From positions 62,001 through 126,000 of the forward strand of contig NZ_JAJIRP010000013.1 in the NCBI RefSeq assembly GCF_025717555.1: DNA of 64,000 nucleotides, written 5' to 3'. The position numbers and the translations under genes were made by a program. The notes below the pieces were generated by a model, which was not told the origin of the DNA, made no database searches, and saw nothing but the letters and a program-made list of their open reading frames with translations. Shown piece after piece: positions 30,572-41,116 of the stretch. This DNA is from Paucibacter sp. B2R-40. Its GTDB lineage: Bacteria > Pseudomonadota > Gammaproteobacteria > Burkholderiales > Burkholderiaceae_C. Every line of letters starts with the position of its first letter. Position 1 is the stretch's first letter.

Positions 30572-31052
30572 GCCAGGCAAGCGCCTCGGTGATCGCAAGC
30601 TGCCTAGCATTCGCCTAGCCCGGCCGGGCGAGTCCGCAGACATGGCGCAGTTGAGCCAGCTCTGCGTTGAACATGCCGAATACGAAGGCCTGCCGCCCTG
30701 TCTGGATGCGGACTTCGGCGCGCGCCTGGCACAGGCCATTGGCGCCGGTCGCTTGCATGTCTGGCTGGCGCAGCAGGGCGAACAAACACTCGCCTATGCC
30801 AGCGCGAGCCTGGATTTTTCAACCCTCGCGGCCCAGCCTTTTGTGCAGATGGACTGCCTTTACCTGCGCCCGGCCGCGCGTGGGCAAGGCCTGGGTGCAC
30901 GCTTGCTGCACACCGTGGCGGACTTCGCGCGGGAGCGGCGCTGCCGGGCCATGCAATGGCAGACGCCGCTGTGGAACGAGGGCGCGACGCGCTTCTATCT
31001 GCGCCAAGGTGCGATGGCGCTGAGCAAAACGCGCTTCAGTTTGGCGCCGTGA
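30555..31052 (+). CDS. GNAT family N-acetyltransferase
   Basis: A 165-residue acetyltransferase with SIRLARPGESADMAQLSQLC at the N-terminus, VQMDCLYLRPAARGQGLGARLL as the acetyl-CoA loop (R-x-x-G-x-G in ARGQGLG), and NEGATRFYLRQGA as the C-terminal strand/helix. There is no ATG upstream of the domain: TTG 30555 or GTG 30561, both within the 3' end of the rhodanese gene, must serve. That placement suggests translation coupled to the rhodanese. Substrate unknown; part of the putative MocR-controlled unit. Confidence 0.75.
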   Translation: MSVLAEPGKRLGDRKLPSIRLARPGESADMAQLSQLCVEHAEYEGLPPCLDADFGARLAQAIGAGRLHVWLAQQGEQTLAYASASLDFSTLAAQPFVQMDCLYLRPAARGQGLGARLLHTVADFARERRCRAMQWQTPLWNEGATRFYLRQGAMALSKTRFSLAP

Positions 31053-31399
31053 GCTGGTTTGCCTTGCGGCATGTCCGCCGCAGGGCTTCAGCTCTACATG
31101 CTGCGGCCGATACAGCCCGTCCTCCTCGAACAGCGACAAAGTGATCTGGCTCAGCCAGCATGTGCGCAACACATCCATCAACATCTCGAAGATATTTTTG
31201 TTGGCGATGACGGCCTGCTGCAGGCGCAGTAACTGGGCGGCGCTGTGCTTCGCGCCCTGCATTGCACCCCGCTTCGTGCGTCCCTCGACGCCCATCTGAT
31301 GTTGCAGGCCACTGGCTGGGCTTGGCGGCTTTGCTGGCGCCAATCCGATTGCTGAAGTGATGCCGCCCTTGTCGTGTGCGGCCACTTGAGGAATTTGTG
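31053..31399. other. Intergenic region holding the icmF remnant
   Basis: This 347-base stretch has no intact gene. Its middle is the 150-base icmF remnant (31098–31247). The right part (31250–31390) is unlike the icmF region and unrecognised; GAGGAA at 31388–31393 is the ribosome site for the next GNAT gene. Confidence 0.6.
31098..31247 (-). pseudogene. Decayed remnant of the icmF 3' end
   Basis: Reading the minus strand gives AAQLLRLQQAVIANKNIFEM and LMDVLRTCWLSQITLSLFEE, then DGLYRP. The C-terminus of IcmF (bases 37698–37848) reads [20 protein letters not shown] and [20 protein letters not shown], then GGQYRRSM. About four in five bases agree over 150 bases, with no similarity beyond about 31247. 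Relative to icmF one base is inserted in the CGG-C-CGC near 31107, shifting the frame just before a TAG that would otherwise end the gene. No start codon or upstream gene body is present. It is in the same orientation as icmF. Confidence 0.8.
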
Positions 31400-32104
31400 A
31401 TGCGCCTGCTGCCCCTCGCCAAATCTCCACCTGTCGCGCTCGAGTTCGAGCGCGCATGCGAGCGCGAAGGGCGGCCTTGCCGCCTGACCTTGCGCCCGAT
31501 CCGGCCGGACGATGGCGCCCGGCTCGCGCTGCTGTTCGATCAGATGTCGGCCGCGGCGCGGCGGCAGCGCTTTCATTGCGCCAGCCGCGGGCCATCGGCA
31601 GCCAGCTTGCTGGCGATGAGCTGCGTGGACTTTGAGCACGACAGTGCCTGGGTGGTGAGCCGCTTCGACGGCGAGGACGAATCCCTGGTGGCTGAGGCGC
31701 GCTGGCACCTCGACGAACAGAACCCGGCCGGCGATACGGCCGAGTTTGCGCTGGCGGTCAGCGATGCGTTCCAGCACCAAGGCCTGGGCTCGCAACTGAT
31801 GGTGCTGCTGGAGCAGGACGCCGCCGCGCACGGGGTGCGCTGCCTGCGTGGCGAGGTGCTGAGTAGCAATGCGCAGATGCTGGCGCTGATGCAGCACCTG
31901 GACTACGAGTTGCTGGAGGAGCGCGGCGCCGCCCAGACGGTCATGGTCGAGCACTGGCTGGCGGCGCCGCAGTGCCGCTCATTCTGGGCAGCCTGCAGCC
32001 GGGTCTGGGCGCGCCTGTGCCGGCGCGCCGCCCCCCGTGTGATGCTCACTGGCCCAGAATCAGGCGCTGCTGCACGATCACAGGCAGCGTGCAGGCGATC
32101 CTGA
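31400..32104 (+). CDS. GNAT family N-acetyltransferase
   Basis: A 234-residue protein with a GNAT core in the middle: LTLRPIRPDDGARLALLFDQM, then AEFALAVSDAFQHQGLGSQLMVLL as acetyl-CoA loop (Q-x-x-G-L-G), and SSNAQMLALMQHLDYEL. This resembles the acetyltransferase domain fused to acyl-CoA synthetases in Pat-type protein lysine acetyltransferases, but here it stands alone. The C-terminal 30 residues are Arg/Ala-rich and probably disordered. Start ATG 31400 (MRLLPLAKSPP) is preceded by GAGGAA. Its 3' end overlaps the convergent exported-protein gene by 59 bases. Confidence 0.72.
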   Translation: MRLLPLAKSPPVALEFERACEREGRPCRLTLRPIRPDDGARLALLFDQMSAAARRQRFHCASRGPSAASLLAMSCVDFEHDSAWVVSRFDGEDESLVAEARWHLDEQNPAGDTAEFALAVSDAFQHQGLGSQLMVLLEQDAAAHGVRCLRGEVLSSNAQMLALMQHLDYELLEERGAAQTVMVEHWLAAPQCRSFWAACSRVWARLCRRAAPRVMLTGPESGAAARSQAACRRS

Positions 32105-32696
32105 AGCTCGCGGCCACCGCTGGCGCGGCCGGCTCGCGCGGGACGATGCGGCCCTGCACGTCCAACGCGAGCAGCCAGTTGCCACCTTGCACGCTAGGGC
32201 TGAGCGGGAACTGCGCCACCTGTGACACGGCGGGCAGGCTGCCGCTGGCGAAACTGATCTGCAGTTGCTGCCCGACCGTGTCATAGAGCATGGACCCGCG
32301 GTAAATCGTCGAAATTACACGATTGACCTGGATCCCGTTCAGCGCCAACGGGGCCAGCATGCGCAGATCGGCCACGGCCAGGTTGTTGTTGATCATCCTC
32401 ATTGAAGTGCCGGTGGGACCATAGAGCAGAGGTGCAAAGGCGCCGCCTGCGACCAAGCCGGGCGGCAAGGCGTCGCCCCGCTTTTGCGACATGCCCAGGC
32501 CGCCGCCAGATCCAGTGCAAGGTGGGCCGGGAGGGCAGGCGGCGGCGGGCACGACATGCCAGCAGTCCAGAGGCGCCGTGGGGTTGCCGCCGGTGCCCGC
32601 AGCGGGCACTTGGGCGCTGACGCCTGCGGCGGTCGTGGTTATGCCGGCGAGCAGCAGGCGGCGGGTGAGGGTTCGGATGCGAAGGGCGGGTTTCAT
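32046..32696 (-). CDS. Exported protein of unknown function
   Basis: A 216-residue protein with an N-terminal export signal: TRRLLLAGITTTAAGVSAQ (twin Arg and a hydrophobic segment, cleavage probably after VSA). The mature part has Cys in LDCWHVVPAAACPPGPPC and a Gly-rich turn, then GTSMRMINNNLAVADLRMLA and WLLALDVQGRIVP, suggesting a beta-rich periplasmic domain. I do not recognise the family. It is 21 bases downstream of the Ser/Thr kinase gene on the same strand and overlaps the convergent GNAT end, so it is likely the last gene of the sigma–kinase unit and a candidate for a regulated or sensed envelope component. Confidence 0.55.
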   Translation of the reverse strand: MKPALRIRTLTRRLLLAGITTTAAGVSAQVPAAGTGGNPTAPLDCWHVVPAAACPPGPPCTGSGGGLGMSQKRGDALPPGLVAGGAFAPLLYGPTGTSMRMINNNLAVADLRMLAPLALNGIQVNRVISTIYRGSMLYDTVGQQLQISFASGSLPAVSQVAQFPLSPSVQGGNWLLALDVQGRIVPREPAAPAVAASFRIACTLPVIVQQRLILGQ

Positions 32697-32717
32697 GCTT
32701 GGACTTTCGTTAGGTTG

Positions 32718-35426
32718 CTAAAGGACCACAGGCAGTTCCGCCCATGGCAGGGGGGAGTGGGATGAGGCGGGCCGCGCCAGCCAGTCGAGCCAGCGGGGCG
32801 CATCGGCCTGGCTGCCGATCTGCAGGCGCAGCGCGTCGCGGTCGGCGGGCGAGATGGCGCGGCCCTCGGCCTGGGCCAGGTAGGCGCGGGCAACCTGGGT
32901 GAAGGGATGCTCGGCGCCCAGGCTGCCGGCCAGCAGCGGTTCGGCCTCGGCCCAGAGCGCGCGCGCTTGTGCGAGCTGGCCGGCGCGCGCCCGCGCGCAA
33001 CCCAGCAGTACGCGTGTGGCGGCGGTGCTGCTGTGCTTGGCGGATGTGAGCGCTATTTGCTGCTCCAGCGTTGTTTGCAGCACCGCCGTGGCCTCGGCCA
33101 GCCAGGCGGGCTGGCCGCTGCGCAGCAGGGCTTCACCGAGGAAGCGGCGTATCTGCTCGGTGCGGCTGCTGTGTCCCTCGCGCTGCTCCGCGCCGGCCAG
33201 CAGGCGGCGCAGCTCGGGCACGGCTTGCGCGCTGCGGCCCTGGTAGATCAGCACTCGGGCGGCCAGCAGCTCGGCGTGGGGCGTGCGCCAGGCGTCGCCG
33301 GGACCTCCGCCTCCGCCTCCGCCCCCGCCGCGCAGGCGCTCTATCCACTGCTGCGTCTGTTCGAAGCGGCCCAGGCGCAGCGTGGCGTAGGCCAGTTCGC
33401 TGACGGTGGACACGGTCAGGCTGTGGTCGGGCCCCAGGCGCTGCAGCATCTCGGCATGGCTGCGGGCCAGTTGGTCGGCGCCGTCGGCAAAGCGTCCGGC
33501 CCAGGCGTCGAGCGTGCCGAGCTGCATCTCGGCGTTGAGTCGCTCGACGGTGCCCGCCGAACCGCGTTGCAAGTTGAGCTGCACGGCACGCATCAGGTGT
33601 TCGCGGGCGGCCTGCATCTGGCCGTTCATGCGGGCGGTGGTGCCCTGACCCTGCGCCGCCCAGGCCAGCCATTCGGCTTCGGTCACGCCGGCTTGGCGCA
33701 GCAGCTGCTCGGCGCGGGCGAAGTCGGCTTGTGCTTCCGGCAGGCGGCCACTGTTCATCGCCATTTCGGCCTGCAGCAGCAGGGCGCGGCCGGGCAGGTC
33801 GGGCCGGGCTTGCGCCAGCGGGCCGGCCAGGCGTGCCAGGGTCCGGGCCGCGTCGTCGGGGCGCTCGCCCTTGATCTGCGCATCCGCCAGGCGCCACAGC
33901 AGCTCGGCCTGGGCGGCGGGCTCGCCGGCGGCTTCAGCGCTCTTGAGCGCGGCCTGCCAGTTGCTTAGGGCGGGTTCCAGGGCGCCGATGTCCTGGTAGA
34001 GCTGGGCCATGCGCCGCACCACGCTGCGCCGGGTGCCGGGGTCGAGCGCGGCTTCGGTGGCCAAGTAGGCCTGCCCGCGGTCCAGCAGTTCGCGGGCGCT
34101 GAACTGGCGATTGGCCGCGTTCTCGGGTGCCATGCCGGCGAACAGGCTTTGCAGCAGGCCGTCCACGGCCTGGGCGCGCTCGGTGCTCAGGCGCGCGGCC
34201 TGCTGCTGGCGCCAGGCCTGCAGTCCGGCCACGCTGCTGCCGGCCAGGCCCAGGGCCAGCAAGGCCAAAGGGAGACGGTGGCGCTGCAGGCCGCGCCCGA
34301 GCACATAGGCCAGGCTCGGGGCGCGCGCCCGCACCGGCCGATGCGCCAGGTGGCGGCGCAGGTCGTCGGCCATGTCGGCCGCCGCGGCATAGCGGCGCGC
34401 CGGATCGCGCTGCAGCGCCTTGCTGATGATGTTGTCGAGGTCGCCGCGCAGCGCCCGGCTCAGCTTGGCCCGGGAGTAGCCGGGCAGCCAGCCCTCGGCA
34501 AGCTGTGCCGAGGGCTTGGGCAGGGGGGCTTCCAGCGCGGCGCGCAGCAGGGCAGCCAAGCCCATGCCGGGCATCAGATACGGGTGGCGGCCGGTGAGCA
34601 GCAGCTGCAGCAGCAAGCCGAGCGCGTAGACATCGGTGGCCGTAGTGACGCCGCTGTCCTGTAACTGCTCAGGCGCGGCGTAGCCGGGGGTCAGGCGGGC
34701 TTCGGCGCGCTGGGTGGGCAAGGTCTCGTCCGGGTCGGCGTCCAGCAGTTTGGCAATGCCGAAGTCGAGCAGCTTGACCTGCCCGTCCTCGCTCACCAAC
34801 ACATTGGCAGGCTTGAGGTCGCGGTGCACGATCAGATGGCGGTGCGCATGGGCGACGGCGTCAAGCAGGGCGATCATCAACTGCAGCCTGGCCCGCAGGT
34901 CCAGGCCGTGCTCGCTGGCGTAGCGGTCGATGGGCAGGCCTTGCACATGCTCCAGCACCAGGTAGGGCTGACCCTGGGAGGTGATACCGGCATCCAGCAA
35001 CCGGCCGATATGGGGGTGGGCCAGCCGCGCGAGGATCTGCCCCTCGCGTTGGAAGCGCTCGGCGGCGTGGCTGCTGGCCAGGCTGAGGTTCAACAGCTTG
35101 ACGGCAGCCTGGCCCCGAAAACGGCCGTCATCGCGTTCGGCCAGCCAGACGCTGCCCATGCCGCCTTCGCCGATCAGCTGCAGCAGCCGCCACGCGCCCA
35201 GGCGCTGGCCGGCCAGGGGCGTGCTGAACACGCTGCCTGCGGCGGGCCGCTCCAGAAAGCTGGCGTGCTCGCCCTCGGCATGAGCCTGCAGCAGGACTTG
35301 CAATTCGGCGGCCAGCGCCGGGTCCTGGGCGCGCAATTGCTCGAGCAGCGTCGCGCGCGCTGAGCTTGGCGCATCCAGCACGGCATCGAGGTGCGGCTGC
35401 AGGGTCTGCCAATGGCTGGGGATCAT
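32718..35426 (-). CDS. Membrane Ser/Thr protein kinase with TPR-like C-terminus
   Basis: A 902-residue Hanks-type kinase. Kinase domain about 78–360: Gly loop GEGGMGSV (86–93), ATP lysine Lys110 in AAVKLL, catalytic HRDLKPAN (Asp203), DFG (Asp221) and APEQL; all key residues are present, so it should be active. A transmembrane helix (about 385–403, LPLALLALGLAGSSVAG) separates it from about 490 residues of Ala-rich helical repeats of TPR type. A polyglycine run (GGGGGGGGG) coded by GGCGGA-like repeats interrupts them near residue 700. This architecture is typical of kinases partnered with ECF sigma factors that have degenerate region 2; such a sigma gene lies 1.7 kb upstream on the same strand. 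Confidence 0.88.
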   Translation of the reverse strand: MIPSHWQTLQPHLDAVLDAPSSARATLLEQLRAQDPALAAELQVLLQAHAEGEHASFLERPAAGSVFSTPLAGQRLGAWRLLQLIGEGGMGSVWLAERDDGRFRGQAAVKLLNLSLASSHAAERFQREGQILARLAHPHIGRLLDAGITSQGQPYLVLEHVQGLPIDRYASEHGLDLRARLQLMIALLDAVAHAHRHLIVHRDLKPANVLVSEDGQVKLLDFGIAKLLDADPDETLPTQRAEARLTPGYAAPEQLQDSGVTTATDVYALGLLLQLLLTGRHPYLMPGMGLAALLRAALEAPLPKPSAQLAEGWLPGYSRAKLSRALRGDLDNIISKALQRDPARRYAAAADMADDLRRHLAHRPVRARAPSLAYVLGRGLQRHRLPLALLALGLAGSSVAGLQAWRQQQAARLSTERAQAVDGLLQSLFAGMAPENAANRQFSARELLDRGQAYLATEAALDPGTRRSVVRRMAQLYQDIGALEPALSNWQAALKSAEAAGEPAAQAELLWRLADAQIKGERPDDAARTLARLAGPLAQARPDLPGRALLLQAEMAMNSGRLPEAQADFARAEQLLRQAGVTEAEWLAWAAQGQGTTARMNGQMQAAREHLMRAVQLNLQRGSAGTVERLNAEMQLGTLDAWAGRFADGADQLARSHAEMLQRLGPDHSLTVSTVSELAYATLRLGRFEQTQQWIERLRGGGGGGGGGPGDAWRTPHAELLAARVLIYQGRSAQAVPELRRLLAGAEQREGHSSRTEQIRRFLGEALLRSGQPAWLAEATAVLQTTLEQQIALTSAKHSSTAATRVLLGCARARAGQLAQARALWAEAEPLLAGSLGAEHPFTQVARAYLAQAEGRAISPADRDALRLQIGSQADAPRWLDWLARPASSHSPLPWAELPVVL

Positions 35427-35491
35427 GGCGGCGGGCGCTCCGTGCTTGTGCGGTGGCTGCGGTGACCGGTGGCCGCTGGATTGTGACCGTC

Positions 35492-36391
35492 TCAGGCCGC
35501 CAGGTACAGGGGGGCGACACCGCCTCTTCGTTCGGCCGGCGGCTGGCTTTGCGCGCGCAGCAGCGCATGCAGGCGCGGCAAGGCGGCCTGCGCGGCCTCG
35601 CGCCCGAGCTGCAGCAGATAGGGCATGGCGGCCGTGTCGAACAGACCCACGCGCCGGTCCAACTCGGGCAGCAGCAGCACGGTGCGCGCGGCATCGGCGC
35701 GTTGCAGCTGGCTGTCCAGCAGGTTGTTCGACAGCGTCGCGGTGATCTGTGTGGCCAGCCTGGAGGCGCTGCTCAGCTGGCGCGGCCGCGGGACTCGAAA
35801 GCCCAGCGCCAGCACCACCTCCGGCCCCGGCACAGCGGCCAGCGGCAGCGGGTCGGACAGGCTGCCGTCCACCAGCAGCTGGCCGGCATGGCTGTGCGCC
35901 GCGAACAAAAAGGGCAAGGCCATGCTGGCGCGCAGGGCGCTGGTGAGCGAGCCTTCGCGCAAGAGCACACCCGCGCCGCTGCGGGCGCAGGTGGCTTGTG
36001 CCGCAAACGGCAGGGGCAGGTTCTCGATACGCTGGTTGCCAAAGGCTTCGTGGAGACGGGCATTGATCAGGCGGTCGTCACGCATTGCGAACTGTGCATC
36101 GAAGCCGGCCAGTCGGGGAGCGGCGATTTGCAGCCAGGCCAGCAGCCGGCGTTGGCGGGTGACCTCGGGCGACCACAGGCGGGTGGCGCGCTCGATCGCT
36201 TCCTCGGCACGCAAGCCGCAGGCCAGCAGCGCGCCGAAGATCGCGCCTGCGCTGCAGCCCACCACGCGCGCCGGCCGCAGGCCCTCGCGCTCCAGCACCT
36301 GCATCAGGCCTAGGCTGGCAATGCTCTTGACCCCGCCGCTGCCCAGCACCAGAGTGAAGCCGCCTGAGGCTCGGGTGTGCGGGCTAAACAT
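35492..36391 (-). CDS. Patatin-like phospholipase
   Basis: A 299-residue patatin-family lipid acyl hydrolase. The oxyanion loop is LVLGSGGVKSIASLG (residues about 14–28), the nucleophile Ser47 is in VVGCSAGAIFGAL (G-x-S-x-G), and the catalytic aspartate is in LLVDGSLSDPLPL (D-G-S instead of D-G-G/A). It resembles bacterial RssA/YchK-type proteins, cytoplasmic or membrane-associated. Start ATG 36391 lies within the last codons of the upstream GNAT gene (8-base overlap, ATGTTTAG), implying coupled translation. The earlier frame to 36619 is antisense-like and discarded. Confidence 0.85.
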   Translation of the reverse strand: MFSPHTRASGGFTLVLGSGGVKSIASLGLMQVLEREGLRPARVVGCSAGAIFGALLACGLRAEEAIERATRLWSPEVTRQRRLLAWLQIAAPRLAGFDAQFAMRDDRLINARLHEAFGNQRIENLPLPFAAQATCARSGAGVLLREGSLTSALRASMALPFLFAAHSHAGQLLVDGSLSDPLPLAAVPGPEVVLALGFRVPRPRQLSSASRLATQITATLSNNLLDSQLQRADAARTVLLLPELDRRVGLFDTAAMPYLLQLGREAAQAALPRLHALLRAQSQPPAERRGGVAPLYLAA

Positions 36392-37070
36392 GGAAGTCCT
36401 CCGCATCGAACTGCAGGCCGGCCGGTGTGACGCTGTGCCAGCGTGGCCAGCGCATGCGCTGGGGCTGGGCGCGAAAGCGGTAGTGCAGGCGCAGCCAGGG
36501 GCTGCCCGGCGCGGCGGCTGCGCATTCGAAGCCGAGCTTGCTGGCGAGTTGCCGCGCGTCCGCATTGGCCTCCAGGGCATGCAGACTGAGGCCGTGCAGA
36601 CCCTGCTGCTGGGCGCCACGCAGCAGCGCTTGCAGCAGGTGGCGACCCAGGCCCTGGCCTTGGCAGCGTGTCCGCACGCAAAGGGCCAGCAGGCCTTCGC
36701 GGCGGCTGGCGGCCGGCGTCCAGCGGCCCTCGGCCAGGGCGCGCTCGCGCTCCTGGCCGGGCAGCCGCTCGGTGATCAGCCAGCCCTGGCCGACACCCGC
36801 GCTCAGTGCCACCTGTTCAGCCACCTGCGGCTCGCTCAGCGAGCGCGACTGACCCAGGAAGCGGTTGAAGCGGGCCGCCTCGGAAAGCCCGTTGTTCCAG
36901 AGCGCGCCGAGCAGCTCGGCGTCACCCGCGCCCTGGGGGCGCAGCTGCAGATAGCGGCCCTGGGGATCGACCCAGCTGGACAGCGGCGAGGACGCCGCCG
37001 ATGCTGATGAGGCCAGCGGCGCAAGCGGCGCAGGAGGCGCGAGAGGGGGCGAGAGAGATAGGGAAGGCAT
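36384..37070 (-). CDS. GNAT family N-acetyltransferase
   Basis: A 228-residue protein with a low-complexity Ser/Pro/Ala N-terminus (about 35 residues) before a GNAT domain: YLQLRPQGAGDAELLGALWNN, LLALCVRTRCQGQGLGRHLL as acetyl-CoA loop (Q-G-Q-G-L-G), then ANADARQLASKLGFECA. The N-terminal half, with LSEAARFNRFLGQSRSLSEP, resembles the Pat-type lysine acetyltransferase domain seen also in the GNAT at 31400, so this block carries two related acetyltransferases. It overlaps patatin by eight bases and lies 76 bases after the ECF sigma gene on the same strand. Confidence 0.75.
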   Translation of the reverse strand: MPSLSLSPPLAPPAPLAPLASSASAASSPLSSWVDPQGRYLQLRPQGAGDAELLGALWNNGLSEAARFNRFLGQSRSLSEPQVAEQVALSAGVGQGWLITERLPGQERERALAEGRWTPAASRREGLLALCVRTRCQGQGLGRHLLQALLRGAQQQGLHGLSLHALEANADARQLASKLGFECAAAAPGSPWLRLHYRFRAQPQRMRWPRWHSVTPAGLQFDAEDFHV

Positions 37071-37146
37071 AGCGGTCTCCGATGTTCAAGGTTGCTCACC
37101 TGTGAAGTCGGAATCCGCCGGCAAAAGCCGCCACGCTCAGCAAAAA

Positions 37147-37698
37147 CTATTTCAAGGCCAGGCGCAGCAAGAGCTTGGCCTTGTCCCACTGGCGCTGGGC
37201 GGTGCGCTCGCTGACACCGGTGAGGGTGGCAATCTCCACCAGCGGGATGCCGCAGAAGAACTTGAGATCCACCAGGTGCGCCAGGGCGGGCTCGTGCTGG
37301 GCGAGTTCATCCAGGGCCTCACTCAGGCCTTCGAGTTCCTGCGGCCCGGCCACTTGCTCCGCCAGCTCGGTGTTCAGGCTGGTGATGTCGAGCCCGCCGC
37401 CGCGCTTGTCGGCATGGCGGGCGCGCACATGGTCGATCACCAAGCCGCGCATCGCCCGCGCCGCGTAGGCCATGAAGTGGGCTTGGTCCTGGAAGCCTGA
37501 ATCGCCACCGCGTTGCAGGTCCAGAAAGGCCTCGTGCAAGAGCGTGGTGGCGCTCAAGGCCGCCAGCGCACCAAAGCGGCCCGCCTCGCGCCGCGCAATG
37601 CGGTGCAGCTCTTCGTAGAGCGCGGCGAAGAGCTCAGCGCGCGCGCCGGGGTCGCCACCCTCGCAGCGCTGGATCAGCGTGGCGAGCGCGGCGCTCAC
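37147..37698 (-). CDS. ECF sigma factor, ECF43-like, lacking the acidic region-2.2 motif
   Basis: A 183-residue sigma-70 family factor. Region 2 covers about residues 20–95 and region 4 about 120–180, with the helix-turn-helix [26 protein letters not shown]. In place of the usual acidic D-A-E-D of region 2.2 it has [14 protein letters not shown] (Thr51, Thr52), which matches sigma factors of the ECF43/TIGR02999 type activated by Ser/Thr kinase phosphorylation. The start is GTG 37698–37696, overlapping the icmF stop (GTGA); the longer frame to 37761 would lie inside icmF. No anti-sigma gene is present. The kinase at 32718 is its likely partner. Confidence 0.85.
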
Positions 37699-40600
37699 AT
37701 GCTGCGCCGATACTGCCCGCCCACCTCGAACAGCGCCGAGGTAATCTGGCCCAGCGAGCAAACCCGCACGGCATCCATCAGCACCTCGAAGACGTTTTTG
37801 TTGTCGATGACGGCCTGCTGCAAACGCTGCAATTGGGCGGCGCTGTCGGCGGCATGCGTGGCGTGGAAATCACGCAGGCGGTGCAGCTGGGACTGTTTTT
37901 CTTCGTCGGTGGAGCGCGCCAGCTCGATGCTTTCCATGACTTGATCGCCATGCGGGTTGCGGAAGGTGTTGACGCCGATGATGGGGTACTCGCCGGTGTG
38001 CTTGAGCATCTCGTAATGCATGCTCTCTTCCTGGATCTTGCTGCGCTGGTAGCCGGTTTCCATGGCGCCCAGCACGCCGCCACGTTCGGCGATTTTCTCG
38101 AACTCGCTCAGCACCGCTTCTTCCAGCAGCTCGGTCAGCTCCTCGATGATAAAAGCGCCTTGTGAGGGGTTCTCGTTCTTGGCCAGGCCCCATTCGCGGT
38201 TGATGATCAGCTGGATCGCCATCGCGCGGCGTACCGATTCTTCGGTCGGCGTGGTGATCGCTTCATCGAAGGCATTGGTGTGCAGGCTGTTGCAGTTGTC
38301 GTAGATCGCGATCAGCGCCTGCAGCGTGGTGCGGATGTCGTTGAACTGGATCTCCTGCGCGTGCAGGCTGCGGCCCGAGGTCTGGATGTGATATTTGAGC
38401 TTCTGGCTGCGCTCATTGGCGCCGTATTTGTCGCGCATCGCCACCGCCCAGATGCGCCGCGCCACGCGGCCCAAGACCGTGTACTCGGGGTCCATGCCGT
38501 TGCTGAAGAAGAAGCTCAGGTTCGGCGCGAAGTCATCGATATGCATGCCGCGCGCCAGATAGGCTTCGACAAAGGTGAAGCCATTCGACAGCGTCAGCGC
38601 CAACTGGCTGATCGGATTCGCGCCGGCCTCGGCGATGTGATAACCGCTGATCGAGACGGAGTAGAAATTGCGCACATTGTGGTGCACGAAGAACTCGGCG
38701 ATATCGCCCATCACCTTCAGGCTGAACTCGGTCGAGAAGATGCAGGTGTTTTGGCCCTGGTCTTCCTTCAGGATGTCGGCCTGCACGGTGCCGCGCACAT
38801 TGGCCAAGACCCAGTCCTTGATCTTGGCGGCTTCGTCAGCGGTCGGGTCGCGGTGGTTGTCGGCCTTGAACTTGGCGAGGTTCTGGTCGATCGCGGTGTT
38901 CATGAACATCGCCAGAATCGTCGGCGCCGGGCCGTTGATCGTCATCGACACCGAGGTCGTCGGGCTGCACAGATCGAAGCCGTCGTAGAGCACCTTCATA
39001 TCGTCCAGCGTCGCGATGCTGACGCCGGAGTTGCCGACCTTGCCGTAGATGTCCGGGCGCGGTGCGGGGTCGGCGCCGTAGAGCGTGACCGAGTCGAAAG
39101 CGGTCGACAGGCGCTTGGCCGGCATACCGGAGCTGACCAGTTTGAAGCGGCGGTTGGTGCGGAAGGCATCGCCTTCGCCGGCGAACATACGGGTCGGATC
39201 TTCGCCCTCGCGCTTGAAGGCGAATACGCCGGCGGTGTAAGGGAAGCTGCCGGGCACGTTCTCCAGCAGCAGCCATTTCAGCAGCTCGCCATGGCATTCA
39301 TAGGCCGGCAACACGACCTTGCGGATCTTGGTGCCCGAGAGGCTGGTGTGAACGAGGTTGGTGCGGATTTCCTTGTCGCGGATCTTCACCACATATTCGT
39401 CGCCGCCGTAAGCCTGCTGCATATCGGGCCATTGCTTGAGCAATTGGCGGGCCGGGGCGTCCATCTGCGCTTCGCGCGCTTCGGCCAAGTCGCTCAAGGC
39501 CATACGCGCGCCTTGCTTGTCGGGGTTGGCTTCCAGCAGCATGCGTGAGCTGCCCCAGAGTTGCTGGATCTCGCGCGCCAACGTTGCTTGTTGACGAGCG
39601 CGCTTTTTGTAGCCGCGCACGGTGTCGGTGATCTCGGCCAGATAACGCACACGTGCCGCGGGCACCACCGGGGTCTGATGGGTGCTGTGGCGGGTGCTCA
39701 CTTGCGGCAAGCGGCCTTCTTTCAACTCCAGGCCGAGCTCGGCCAGGCGCGGCTTCAAGGCTTGGTAGAGCGCAGTCACGCCGTCATCATTGAAGCGACT
39801 GGCCATCGTGCCGAAGACCGGCATCTGGTCCGGCGCCGTGGTCCAGGCTTCCTTGTTGCGCTGCACCTGTTTGGCGACATCGCGGATCGCGTCGAGCGCG
39901 CCCTTGCGGTCGAACTTGTTGATCGCGACGAACTCGGCGAAGTCCAGCATGTCGATTTTTTCGAGCTGGCTGGCCGCGCCAAACTCGGGCGTCATCACAT
40001 ACATCGGCACATCGACATGCGGCACGATGGCCGCGTCGCCCTGGCCAATGCCTGAGGTCTCGACAATGATCAGGTCGAAGCCGGCGACCTTGGCCGCGGC
40101 GATCGCGTCGGGCAGGGCAGGGGAGATCTCGCTGCCGAAGTCGCGGGTAGCGAGGCTGCGCATGAAAACTCTTTGACCCTGACTCCAAGGGCCGATGGCG
40201 TTCATGCGGATGCGGTCGCCGAGCAGCGCGCCGCCGCTCTTGCGGCGTGATGGATCGATCGAGATCACTGCCACGCGCAGGCCATCGTTCTGGTCCAAGC
40301 GCAAACGGCGGATCAGCTCATCGGTCAGGCTGGATTTGCCGGCGCCACCGGTGCCGGTGATGCCCAGCACGGGCACCTTGATGCTCTTGGCGGCGGCTTG
40401 CAACTCGGCGACCAGCGCCGCGTCGGCCTTGTCGTTCTCTAAAGCGGTGATCAACTGGGCCAGTGAGCGCCAAGCGCCTTCGCCATGGCCTTGCAAGCTG
40501 CTCAAGGCTTTGGGCGCATAGACGCTGAAGTCTTGGTCGGCCTTCATCACCATCTCGCCGATCATGCCTTGCAGGCCCATGCGTTGGCCGTCTTCTGGGC

Positions 40601-40985
40601 TGAAGATGCGCACGCCATGTTCGGCCAGATCGCGGATCTCGGCCGGCACGATCACGCCGCCGCCGCCGCCGAAGACCTGGATATGCTCGCCGCCGCGAGC
40701 CTTCAGCAACTCGACCATGTATTTGAAGTACTCGACATGGCCGCCCTGGTAAGAGCTGATGGCGATGCCTTGCGCGTCTTCTTGCAGTGCTGCGGTGACG
40801 ACCTCGTCGACCGAGCGGTTGTGGCCGAGGTGGATCACCTCGACGCCCATGCCTTGCAGGATGCGCCGCATGATGTTGATGGCGGCGTCATGGCCGTCAA
40901 ACAGACTGGCGGCCGTCACAAAGCGCACCTTGTTGGACGGGCGATAGTTGGCGAGGGCCTTGTATTCGGCGGACAAATCGGTCAT
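37695..40985 (-). CDS. icmF: Fused isobutyryl-CoA mutase (IcmF)
   Basis: A 1096-residue adenosylcobalamin enzyme interconverting isobutyryl- and n-butyryl-CoA (isovaleryl/pivalyl-CoA in some members), with its own GTPase chaperone. Order: B12-binding domain (about 20–150; His32 in [20 protein letters not shown]), MeaI-type G domain (P-loop GTGGAGKS, 211–218), then the mutase barrel, with [25 protein letters not shown] and [13 protein letters not shown] consistent with the IcmF rather than methylmalonyl-CoA class. Length equals known IcmF. Start ATG 40985 follows GGAGACC; the frame opens at 41042. A 20-bp palindrome precedes it at 41068. Its stop overlaps the GTG of the ECF sigma gene. Confidence 0.93.
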
Positions 40986-41067
40986 GGCAGGTCTCCAGCG
41001 GCAATGGCTAATGTCATCAGGCTTGCCGGTTTTTAACAGCAAAACTGCGGTGATTCTAGGGCTTGAT

Positions 41068-41087
41068 TGACGTTTACGTAAACGTCA
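41068..41087. promoter_or_regulatory. Perfect 20-bp palindrome upstream of icmF
   Basis: TGACGTTTACGTAAACGTCA is a perfect palindrome, 82 bases upstream of the icmF start. It shares TGACGTTTACGTAA and CGTCA with the ivd site at 3571–3596. Two such sites before branched-chain acyl-CoA genes suggest one shared regulator (LiuR- or TetR-type); the protein is not encoded in the window. Confidence 0.7.
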
Positions 41088-41116
41088 GTTTGGGGCCGGC
41101 AACATTGTGGCGAGCA

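Follow-up and report, generated by a model that had tools for sequence, protein, structure and literature searches.

Region 2.2 threonines and a probable kinase partner of an ECF43-type sigma factor behind icmF in Paucibacter sp. B2R-40

How can a sigma factor work that carries no acid at all in the region 2.2 motif, where canonical factors of the extracytoplasmic function (ECF) type carry Glu and Asp? This question is raised by a stretch of 64,000 nucleotides from Paucibacter sp. B2R-40 (contig NZ_JAJIRP010000013.1, positions 62,001 to 126,000; hereafter the window), in which the gene of such a sigma factor starts at the very end of icmF and is accompanied, 1.7 kb downstream and on the same strand, by the gene of a membrane Ser/Thr kinase. 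A preliminary description of this DNA had predicted a sigma factor switched by phosphorylation. The comparisons reported here make it quite probable that the pair is a horizontally acquired phospho-switch of the known kind formed by ECF43 sigma factors and Ser/Thr protein kinases. The genes and motif codons on which this reading is based are as follows.

37147..37698, minus strand: sigma factor of the ECF43 type (183 aa), whose GTG start overlaps the stop of icmF; T51 is the predicted acceptor and T52 a possible second one
37543..37554, minus strand: codons of the region 2.2 motif S49-A50-T51-T52, counted from the GTG start at 37698
32718..35426, minus strand: Ser/Thr kinase resembling PknS (902 aa), made up of an N-terminal extension (about 1-75), kinase domain (about 76-362), transmembrane helix (about 385-403, by hydropathy), C-terminal TPR region

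The sigma factor and its linked kinase

The sigma factor is an intact match to TIGR02999 (151 bits, cut-off 126.15) and also matches PF07638 (125 bits, cut-off 21.1), the sigma type which we take to be the family holding the ECF43 members and which is used here as a proxy for ECF43. Its motif reads S49-A50-T51-T52-L-L-H55-E56, with no acid in the four positions of SATT. In profile alignments against the PDB, T51 lies under the Glu and T52 under the Asp of QAED (SigL, 6DV9) and DAED (SigE, 9M9D), the overall matches being weak (E 6e-5 and 5e-4), and the replacement of the acidic motif by Thr51/Thr52, as first described, is thereby borne out. A phmmer search of the PDB with the sigma factor alone gave no match at E <= 0.1. 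Across 96 ECF43-like rows, which were gathered from the loci and aligned with a hidden Markov model, column 51 is occupied by Thr in 83 and by Ser in seven rows, and Thr in this position is therefore hardly a matter of chance. An AlphaFold2 model of the sigma factor was of moderate quality (mean predicted local distance difference test score 73, about 62-71 across residues 41-80), with a helix beginning at residue 50. The best match of a Foldseek search with this model was 6JBQ (sigmaE, E 0.004), no match reached E <= 0.001, and the query template-modelling score stayed below 0.4 among the 50 matches listed; this search was not used as evidence.

That a threonine in this position is phosphorylated in the ECF43 type agrees with two reports (PMC8999054, PMC13147305). 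In EcfP of Vibrio parahaemolyticus STTA replaces DAED, and the second Thr is phosphorylated by PknT (PMC8999054), whereas PknS of Xanthomonas citri phosphorylates EcfK at T51, which lies in the motif QATE, and at four residues of the linker (PMC13147305). As the phosphorylated residue is in both cases the third of the motif, it corresponds to T51 here (the residue number is even the same as in EcfK), and T51 lies, as judged from these published motifs, in the column phosphorylated in both proteins. In the ECF43 family this column is reported to be Thr in 88% (PMC13147305). The motif of EcfP is acid-free like that of the window sigma factor, with Ala instead of Thr at position 52, while QATE retains an acid beside its Thr. 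EcfK and the window sigma factor both have Ser/Thr in the linker. The column of S107 contains S/T/D/E in 78 of the 96 rows, close to the 76.9% acidic or Ser/Thr residues published for the EcfK T106 column (PMC13147305), to which it may correspond. As EcfK was still functional with T51A alone and lost its function with T51A plus T106A (PMC13147305), a linker Thr also mattered there, and a T51A variant without effect, which the preliminary description had named as an argument against the switch, would by itself be insufficient for this purpose. In the literature searched, the sigma factors with a described activation by phosphorylation are EcfP, EcfK and a protein of Hyphomonas. Control by phosphorylation is likewise predicted for ECF59, ECF61, ECF62, ECF217 and ECF283, which also have a neighbouring kinase, yet the groups other than ECF43 are stated to have DAED or a very similar motif (PMC8999054), unlike the window sigma factor.

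In a tree of the 96 sigma factors the window sigma factor falls within a clade of 13 rows (Shimodaira-Hasegawa-like approximate likelihood ratio test 98), referred to here as the double-Thr or TTLL clade. Its members come from the own genome, from two congeners and further genera of the family, from two genomes belonging to different families of the order, and from two metagenome-assembled genomes (MAGs), of which one is assigned to Burkholderiales and one labelled Acidobacteria. Thr stands at position 52 in 12 of the 13 rows but in only 3 of the 83 others, position 49 is acidic in none compared with 41 of 83, and Asp or Glu anywhere in the four positions of the motif occurs in one compared with 47 of 83; as the clade's rows are related by descent, these are not independent events. 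Position 51 is Thr in 11 and Ser in two rows of the clade. With an acid kept by 47 of the 83 others, full acid loss is a mark of the TTLL clade and not of the ECF43-like family as sampled, a point in which the preliminary description needs correction. The residual acid kept by many relatives is almost gone in the TTLL clade, and a second potential acceptor stands at the position of the Asp.

The kinase retains all motifs expected of an active enzyme (GEGGMG at 86, AVKLL at 108, HRDLKPAN at 201, DFG at 221 and TPGYAAPE) and matches Pkinase (140 bits) and TPR_12 (61.5 bits) of Pfam. Its most hydrophobic 19-mer, residues 385-403, is a likely transmembrane helix by hydropathy, and the intact catalytic residues, membrane helix and TPR repeats initially attributed to 32718–35426 are thus all recovered. 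The best sequence match in the PDB, with E 1.8e-48 over residues 4-360 and hence also over the N-terminal extension, is 9EED, which is PknS, the kinase of EcfK (PMC13147305). The layout of PknS and PknT, with an N-terminal extension, a Hanks kinase domain, a transmembrane helix (here from hydropathy) and a TPR C-terminus, is found in the window kinase as well. A CCTCCG repeat (4.3 copies, 33304-33329) in its gene yields a glycine run in the C-terminal region.

Of 42 distinct sigma rows, 37 have a kinase match nearby; one of these matches reaches just 22 bits and lies at a contig end. The same genome contains four further pairs of a TIGR02999 sigma factor and a PknS-like kinase (L043-L046; motifs SATA, DATG, DTQA and NTTA), whose sigma factors are 32-40% identical to the window sigma factor and have the kinase match at most 350 bases away. 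Two tandem PknS-like kinases follow one TTLL-clade sigma factor at another locus (L155, 4949-8905), and two kinases are likewise seen at L225. No anti-sigma factor was found by Pfam or NCBIfam matches among the five cassette proteins searched, as the preliminary description had stated, and neither the acidic DAED motif nor an anti-sigma partner gene, the two features of a canonical ECF locus, is thus seen here. The ECF43 scheme is supported by the sigma family, the Thr column, the lost Glu/Asp acids, the lack of an anti-sigma match and a transmembrane kinase that resembles PknS and is encoded in one gene run with the sigma factor.

According to this scheme, the TPR part of the kinase, on the periplasmic side, would presumably sense a signal at the membrane, and the cytoplasmic kinase domain would thereby become active. 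The kinase would then phosphorylate the sigma factor on T51, and perhaps on T52 and Ser/Thr residues of the linker. The phosphate is expected to restore the negative charge that Glu or Asp provides in canonical ECF factors, enabling the sigma factor to bind core RNA polymerase. The active sigma factor may drive its own cassette, with the GNAT and patatin genes as the first candidates.

The GNAT and patatin genes as candidate outputs

A run of genes on one strand comprises icmF, sigma factor, GNAT, patatin, kinase and exported protein, in this order; neighbours in it either overlap or are no more than 76 bases apart. Besides icmF, the sigma factor and the kinase the run includes the following genes.

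36384..37070, minus strand: GNAT acetyltransferase, 228 aa
35492..36391, minus strand: patatin-like phospholipase, 299 aa, GCSAG and DGS motifs; ATG overlapping the GNAT stop
32046..32696, minus strand: probably exported protein, 216 aa, signal-peptide-like N terminus judged by eye

A longer reading frame of the patatin gene (35492-36619) was not needed, and the start of 35492..36391 was accepted. For the exported protein no Pfam or NCBIfam match was found, and the search of 159 other family genomes gave only three weak matches (E 5e-4 to 7e-4).

Relatives of the patatin were present in at least 24 of the 299 family genomes searched (E <= 1e-30). The comparison, which started from patatin loci, included 25 of them (the window and L037 among them, tandem copies merged), and ten had a GNAT gene within 400 bases. 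An ECF43-like sigma factor was located within 2.5 kb at six of these ten loci but at none of the 15 without GNAT (Fisher p 0.0012; 0.0030 without the window). Within 5 kb, and with the window left out, the numbers were 6 of 9 compared with 1 of 15 (p 0.0037); a seventh GNAT-patatin locus (L037) has its sigma factor at 4.0 kb, and one locus without GNAT (L231) at 4.3 kb. The gene order differs between these loci: sigma-GNAT-patatin-kinase in the window, sigma-kinase-GNAT-patatin in G045, sigma-GNAT-patatin in G154, where the kinase lies on the opposite strand at a distance of 3.6 kb upstream, and GNAT-patatin-sigma-kinase in G1382 and G1309 and, with a gap, in G091, while G1326 is divergent. 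The linked sigma factors belong to two clades of the tree, TTLL (window, G045, G154) and DTSA/DTST (G091, G1382, G1309). The sigma factor of G1326 (motif DTTA; L212, 2264-2728), for which the profile matches in two pieces within one frame and the part before region 4 is apparently missing, was not placed on the tree. As the pair recurs beside ECF43-like sigma factors of at least two clades, GNAT and patatin are good candidate outputs that may, short of proof, be driven by the switch. Their earlier designation as candidate outputs or inputs is strengthened by this recurrence, which leaves the direction unsettled. In the literature searched, with titles as the basis for judging this linkage, no description of GNAT-patatin next to ECF43-like sigma factors was found.

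The known systems have other outputs, namely polymyxin resistance for EcfP (PMC8999054) and the type VI secretion system for PknS/EcfK (PMC13147305), and no type VI secretion family match was found among the five cassette proteins of the window. Also, in contrast to the window, neither GNAT nor patatin was matched in the 18-19 kb examined at L043-L046.

Several observations weigh against an output role. Three of the ten GNAT-patatin pairs lack an ECF43-like sigma factor in the 18 kb examined, and only 3 of the 13 TTLL-clade rows have the pair. Three other sigma-kinase pairs of the clade have a MauG/MbnH-like di-heme protein gene (below model cut-offs) beside them as alternative cargo (L039, 2216-3712; L041, 5105-6637; L058, 6013-7524). 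In G155, a congener close to G154, the sigma factor is followed by GNAT without patatin (L235, 1130-2395), the next gene reading like a valyl-tRNA synthetase; as the sigma-GNAT order is kept there, GNAT may be the closer companion. Finally, the search for conserved promoters in related genomes, which had been suggested at the outset, yielded no shared motif: for 4+4 dyads with spacers of 14-19 in 19 upstream stretches, at most five stretches shared a dyad, compared with four to six in 20 single-base shuffles. Upstream of GNAT in L225, L226 and L228 a common TGCGTGG-AC element is visible by eye, possibly a regulatory site or just a sign of relatedness.

It is therefore conceivable, though we consider it somewhat improbable, that the GNAT and patatin genes are passengers or have an upstream role, with the true regulon elsewhere, an arrangement that would be compatible with the phospho-switch itself. 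The four of ten pairs and all 15 patatins without GNAT that have no ECF43-like sigma factor within 2.5 kb fit with this idea, whereas the linkage to at least two sigma clades in varied gene orders, significant even without the window, speaks against it.

Junction with icmF and origin of the cassette

The cassette is bordered by the following features.

37695..40985, minus strand: native icmF gene, encoding a fused isobutyryl-CoA mutase/GTPase; the ATG at 40985 is used as its start
31376..32104, plus strand: second GNAT at the far end of the insert; partial acetyltransferase Pat match, below the model cut-off
31095..31246, minus strand: second icmF 3' end, decayed and frameshifted, which marks the far boundary of the insert

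The gene icmF is a coenzyme B12-dependent metabolic gene, and its C terminus was matched in all 18 genomes of the genus. Sigma factor relatives of at least 54% identity occurred in just one of these 18, the own genome (the wider TTLL clade in three), and, with the own genome counted each time, in 6 of 150 family, at least 3 of 399 order and at least 1 of 369 class genomes. In the near species G150, which is about 92% identical around icmF, the cassette is absent and AraC-like and AhpD-like genes (read from translations) lie between icmF and GNAT/rhodanese genes. The spot after icmF holds differing genes in the five congeners for which downstream reading frames were listed. The cassette genes, kinase included, have a G + C content of 68-73%, compared with 62.5% for icmF and 63.3% for the window.

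At the junction, icmF ends with ATGTGA instead of the ATGTAA of three relatives (L085, L087, L088), and the sigma GTG overlaps this stop with no evident ribosome site. The two copies of the icmF 3' end (31095-31246 and 37695-37846) lie in direct orientation about 6.6 kb apart and flank the cassette. The remnant is 82% identical over 141 bases and 78% over a longer alignment, and is nearest, although weakly placed, to icmF of the own genome and of G150. As shown by the GTG/stop overlap, the changed icmF end and the decayed 3' copy at the far side, the cassette was joined at the icmF stop. A megablast search of 31000-41100 against plasmids yielded three records, every one within the icmF part and none matching the cassette, and tblastn of the sigma factor against plasmids yielded seven, all below 60% identity. 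Horizontal acquisition forms part of the explanation that we consider quite probable as a whole. As the start codon overlaps the icmF stop without an evident ribosome site, translation of the sigma factor would be coupled to icmF and its supply may follow that gene.

Pairing of sigma factor and kinase and possible meaning

Is the linked kinase the one that acts on the sigma factor? Distance matrices of sigma factors and kinases correlate with r 0.81 over 76 pairs, and none of 2000 permutations was as high, although shared ancestry, for which permutations do not correct, contributes to this value. In the kinase tree the ten kinases linked to TTLL sigma factors need two label changes, compared with 9.6 for shuffled labels (none of 500 shuffles was as low), and a single clade for them was not rejected by the approximately unbiased (AU) test (p-AU 0.35). 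Other points tell against the pairing and the switch. Two genes separate kinase and sigma factor in the window, and the window kinase is 52-58% identical to all rows shown, not being specially close to the kinases of the sigma factor's nearest relatives, and it branches at the base of a set of 33 rows. One TTLL-clade sigma factor (L038, 12963-13511) has no kinase match in the 15.9 kb examined, in a genome with another TTLL-clade pair (L039), and linker column 107 is S/T/D/E in just 8 of the 13 rows of the clade. Given the basal position and the even identities of the kinase, a cognate pairing appears likely rather than proven.

It seems unlikely to us that this ECF43 member, while being phospho-switched, has another kinase as its partner in the cell, after a swap or by cross-talk with the kinases of the four other pairs of this genome. 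Such an arrangement would be in line with the intervening genes, with a kinase domain that resembles the kinases of several sigma clades to about the same degree and with the presence of these four pairs, but the unrejected single clade and the raised G + C content across the whole cassette, kinase included, do not favor a swap. Even less credible is a sigma factor that works without phosphorylation, with a neutral TT substitution and control by supply through transcription and translation with icmF, as, despite the start overlapping the icmF stop, Thr prevails in column 51, kinases accompany most sigma rows and experiments on EcfP and EcfK are published (PMC8999054, PMC13147305).

If the phospho-switch is as proposed, the TTLL clade might represent a subtype with two adjacent acceptor threonines at the Glu and Asp positions and no residual acid, in which one or two phosphates would grade the activity, GNAT and patatin would be the output (possibly acetylation of proteins together with turnover of membrane lipids) and supply would follow icmF by way of the shared stop codon. 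We regard this extended picture as speculative and rather doubtful in its entirety. A clade with a double-Thr motif would nevertheless allow a test of one-site versus two-site control, and the recurrent GNAT and patatin genes would provide a testable candidate target for an ECF43-type switch beyond the systems described so far.

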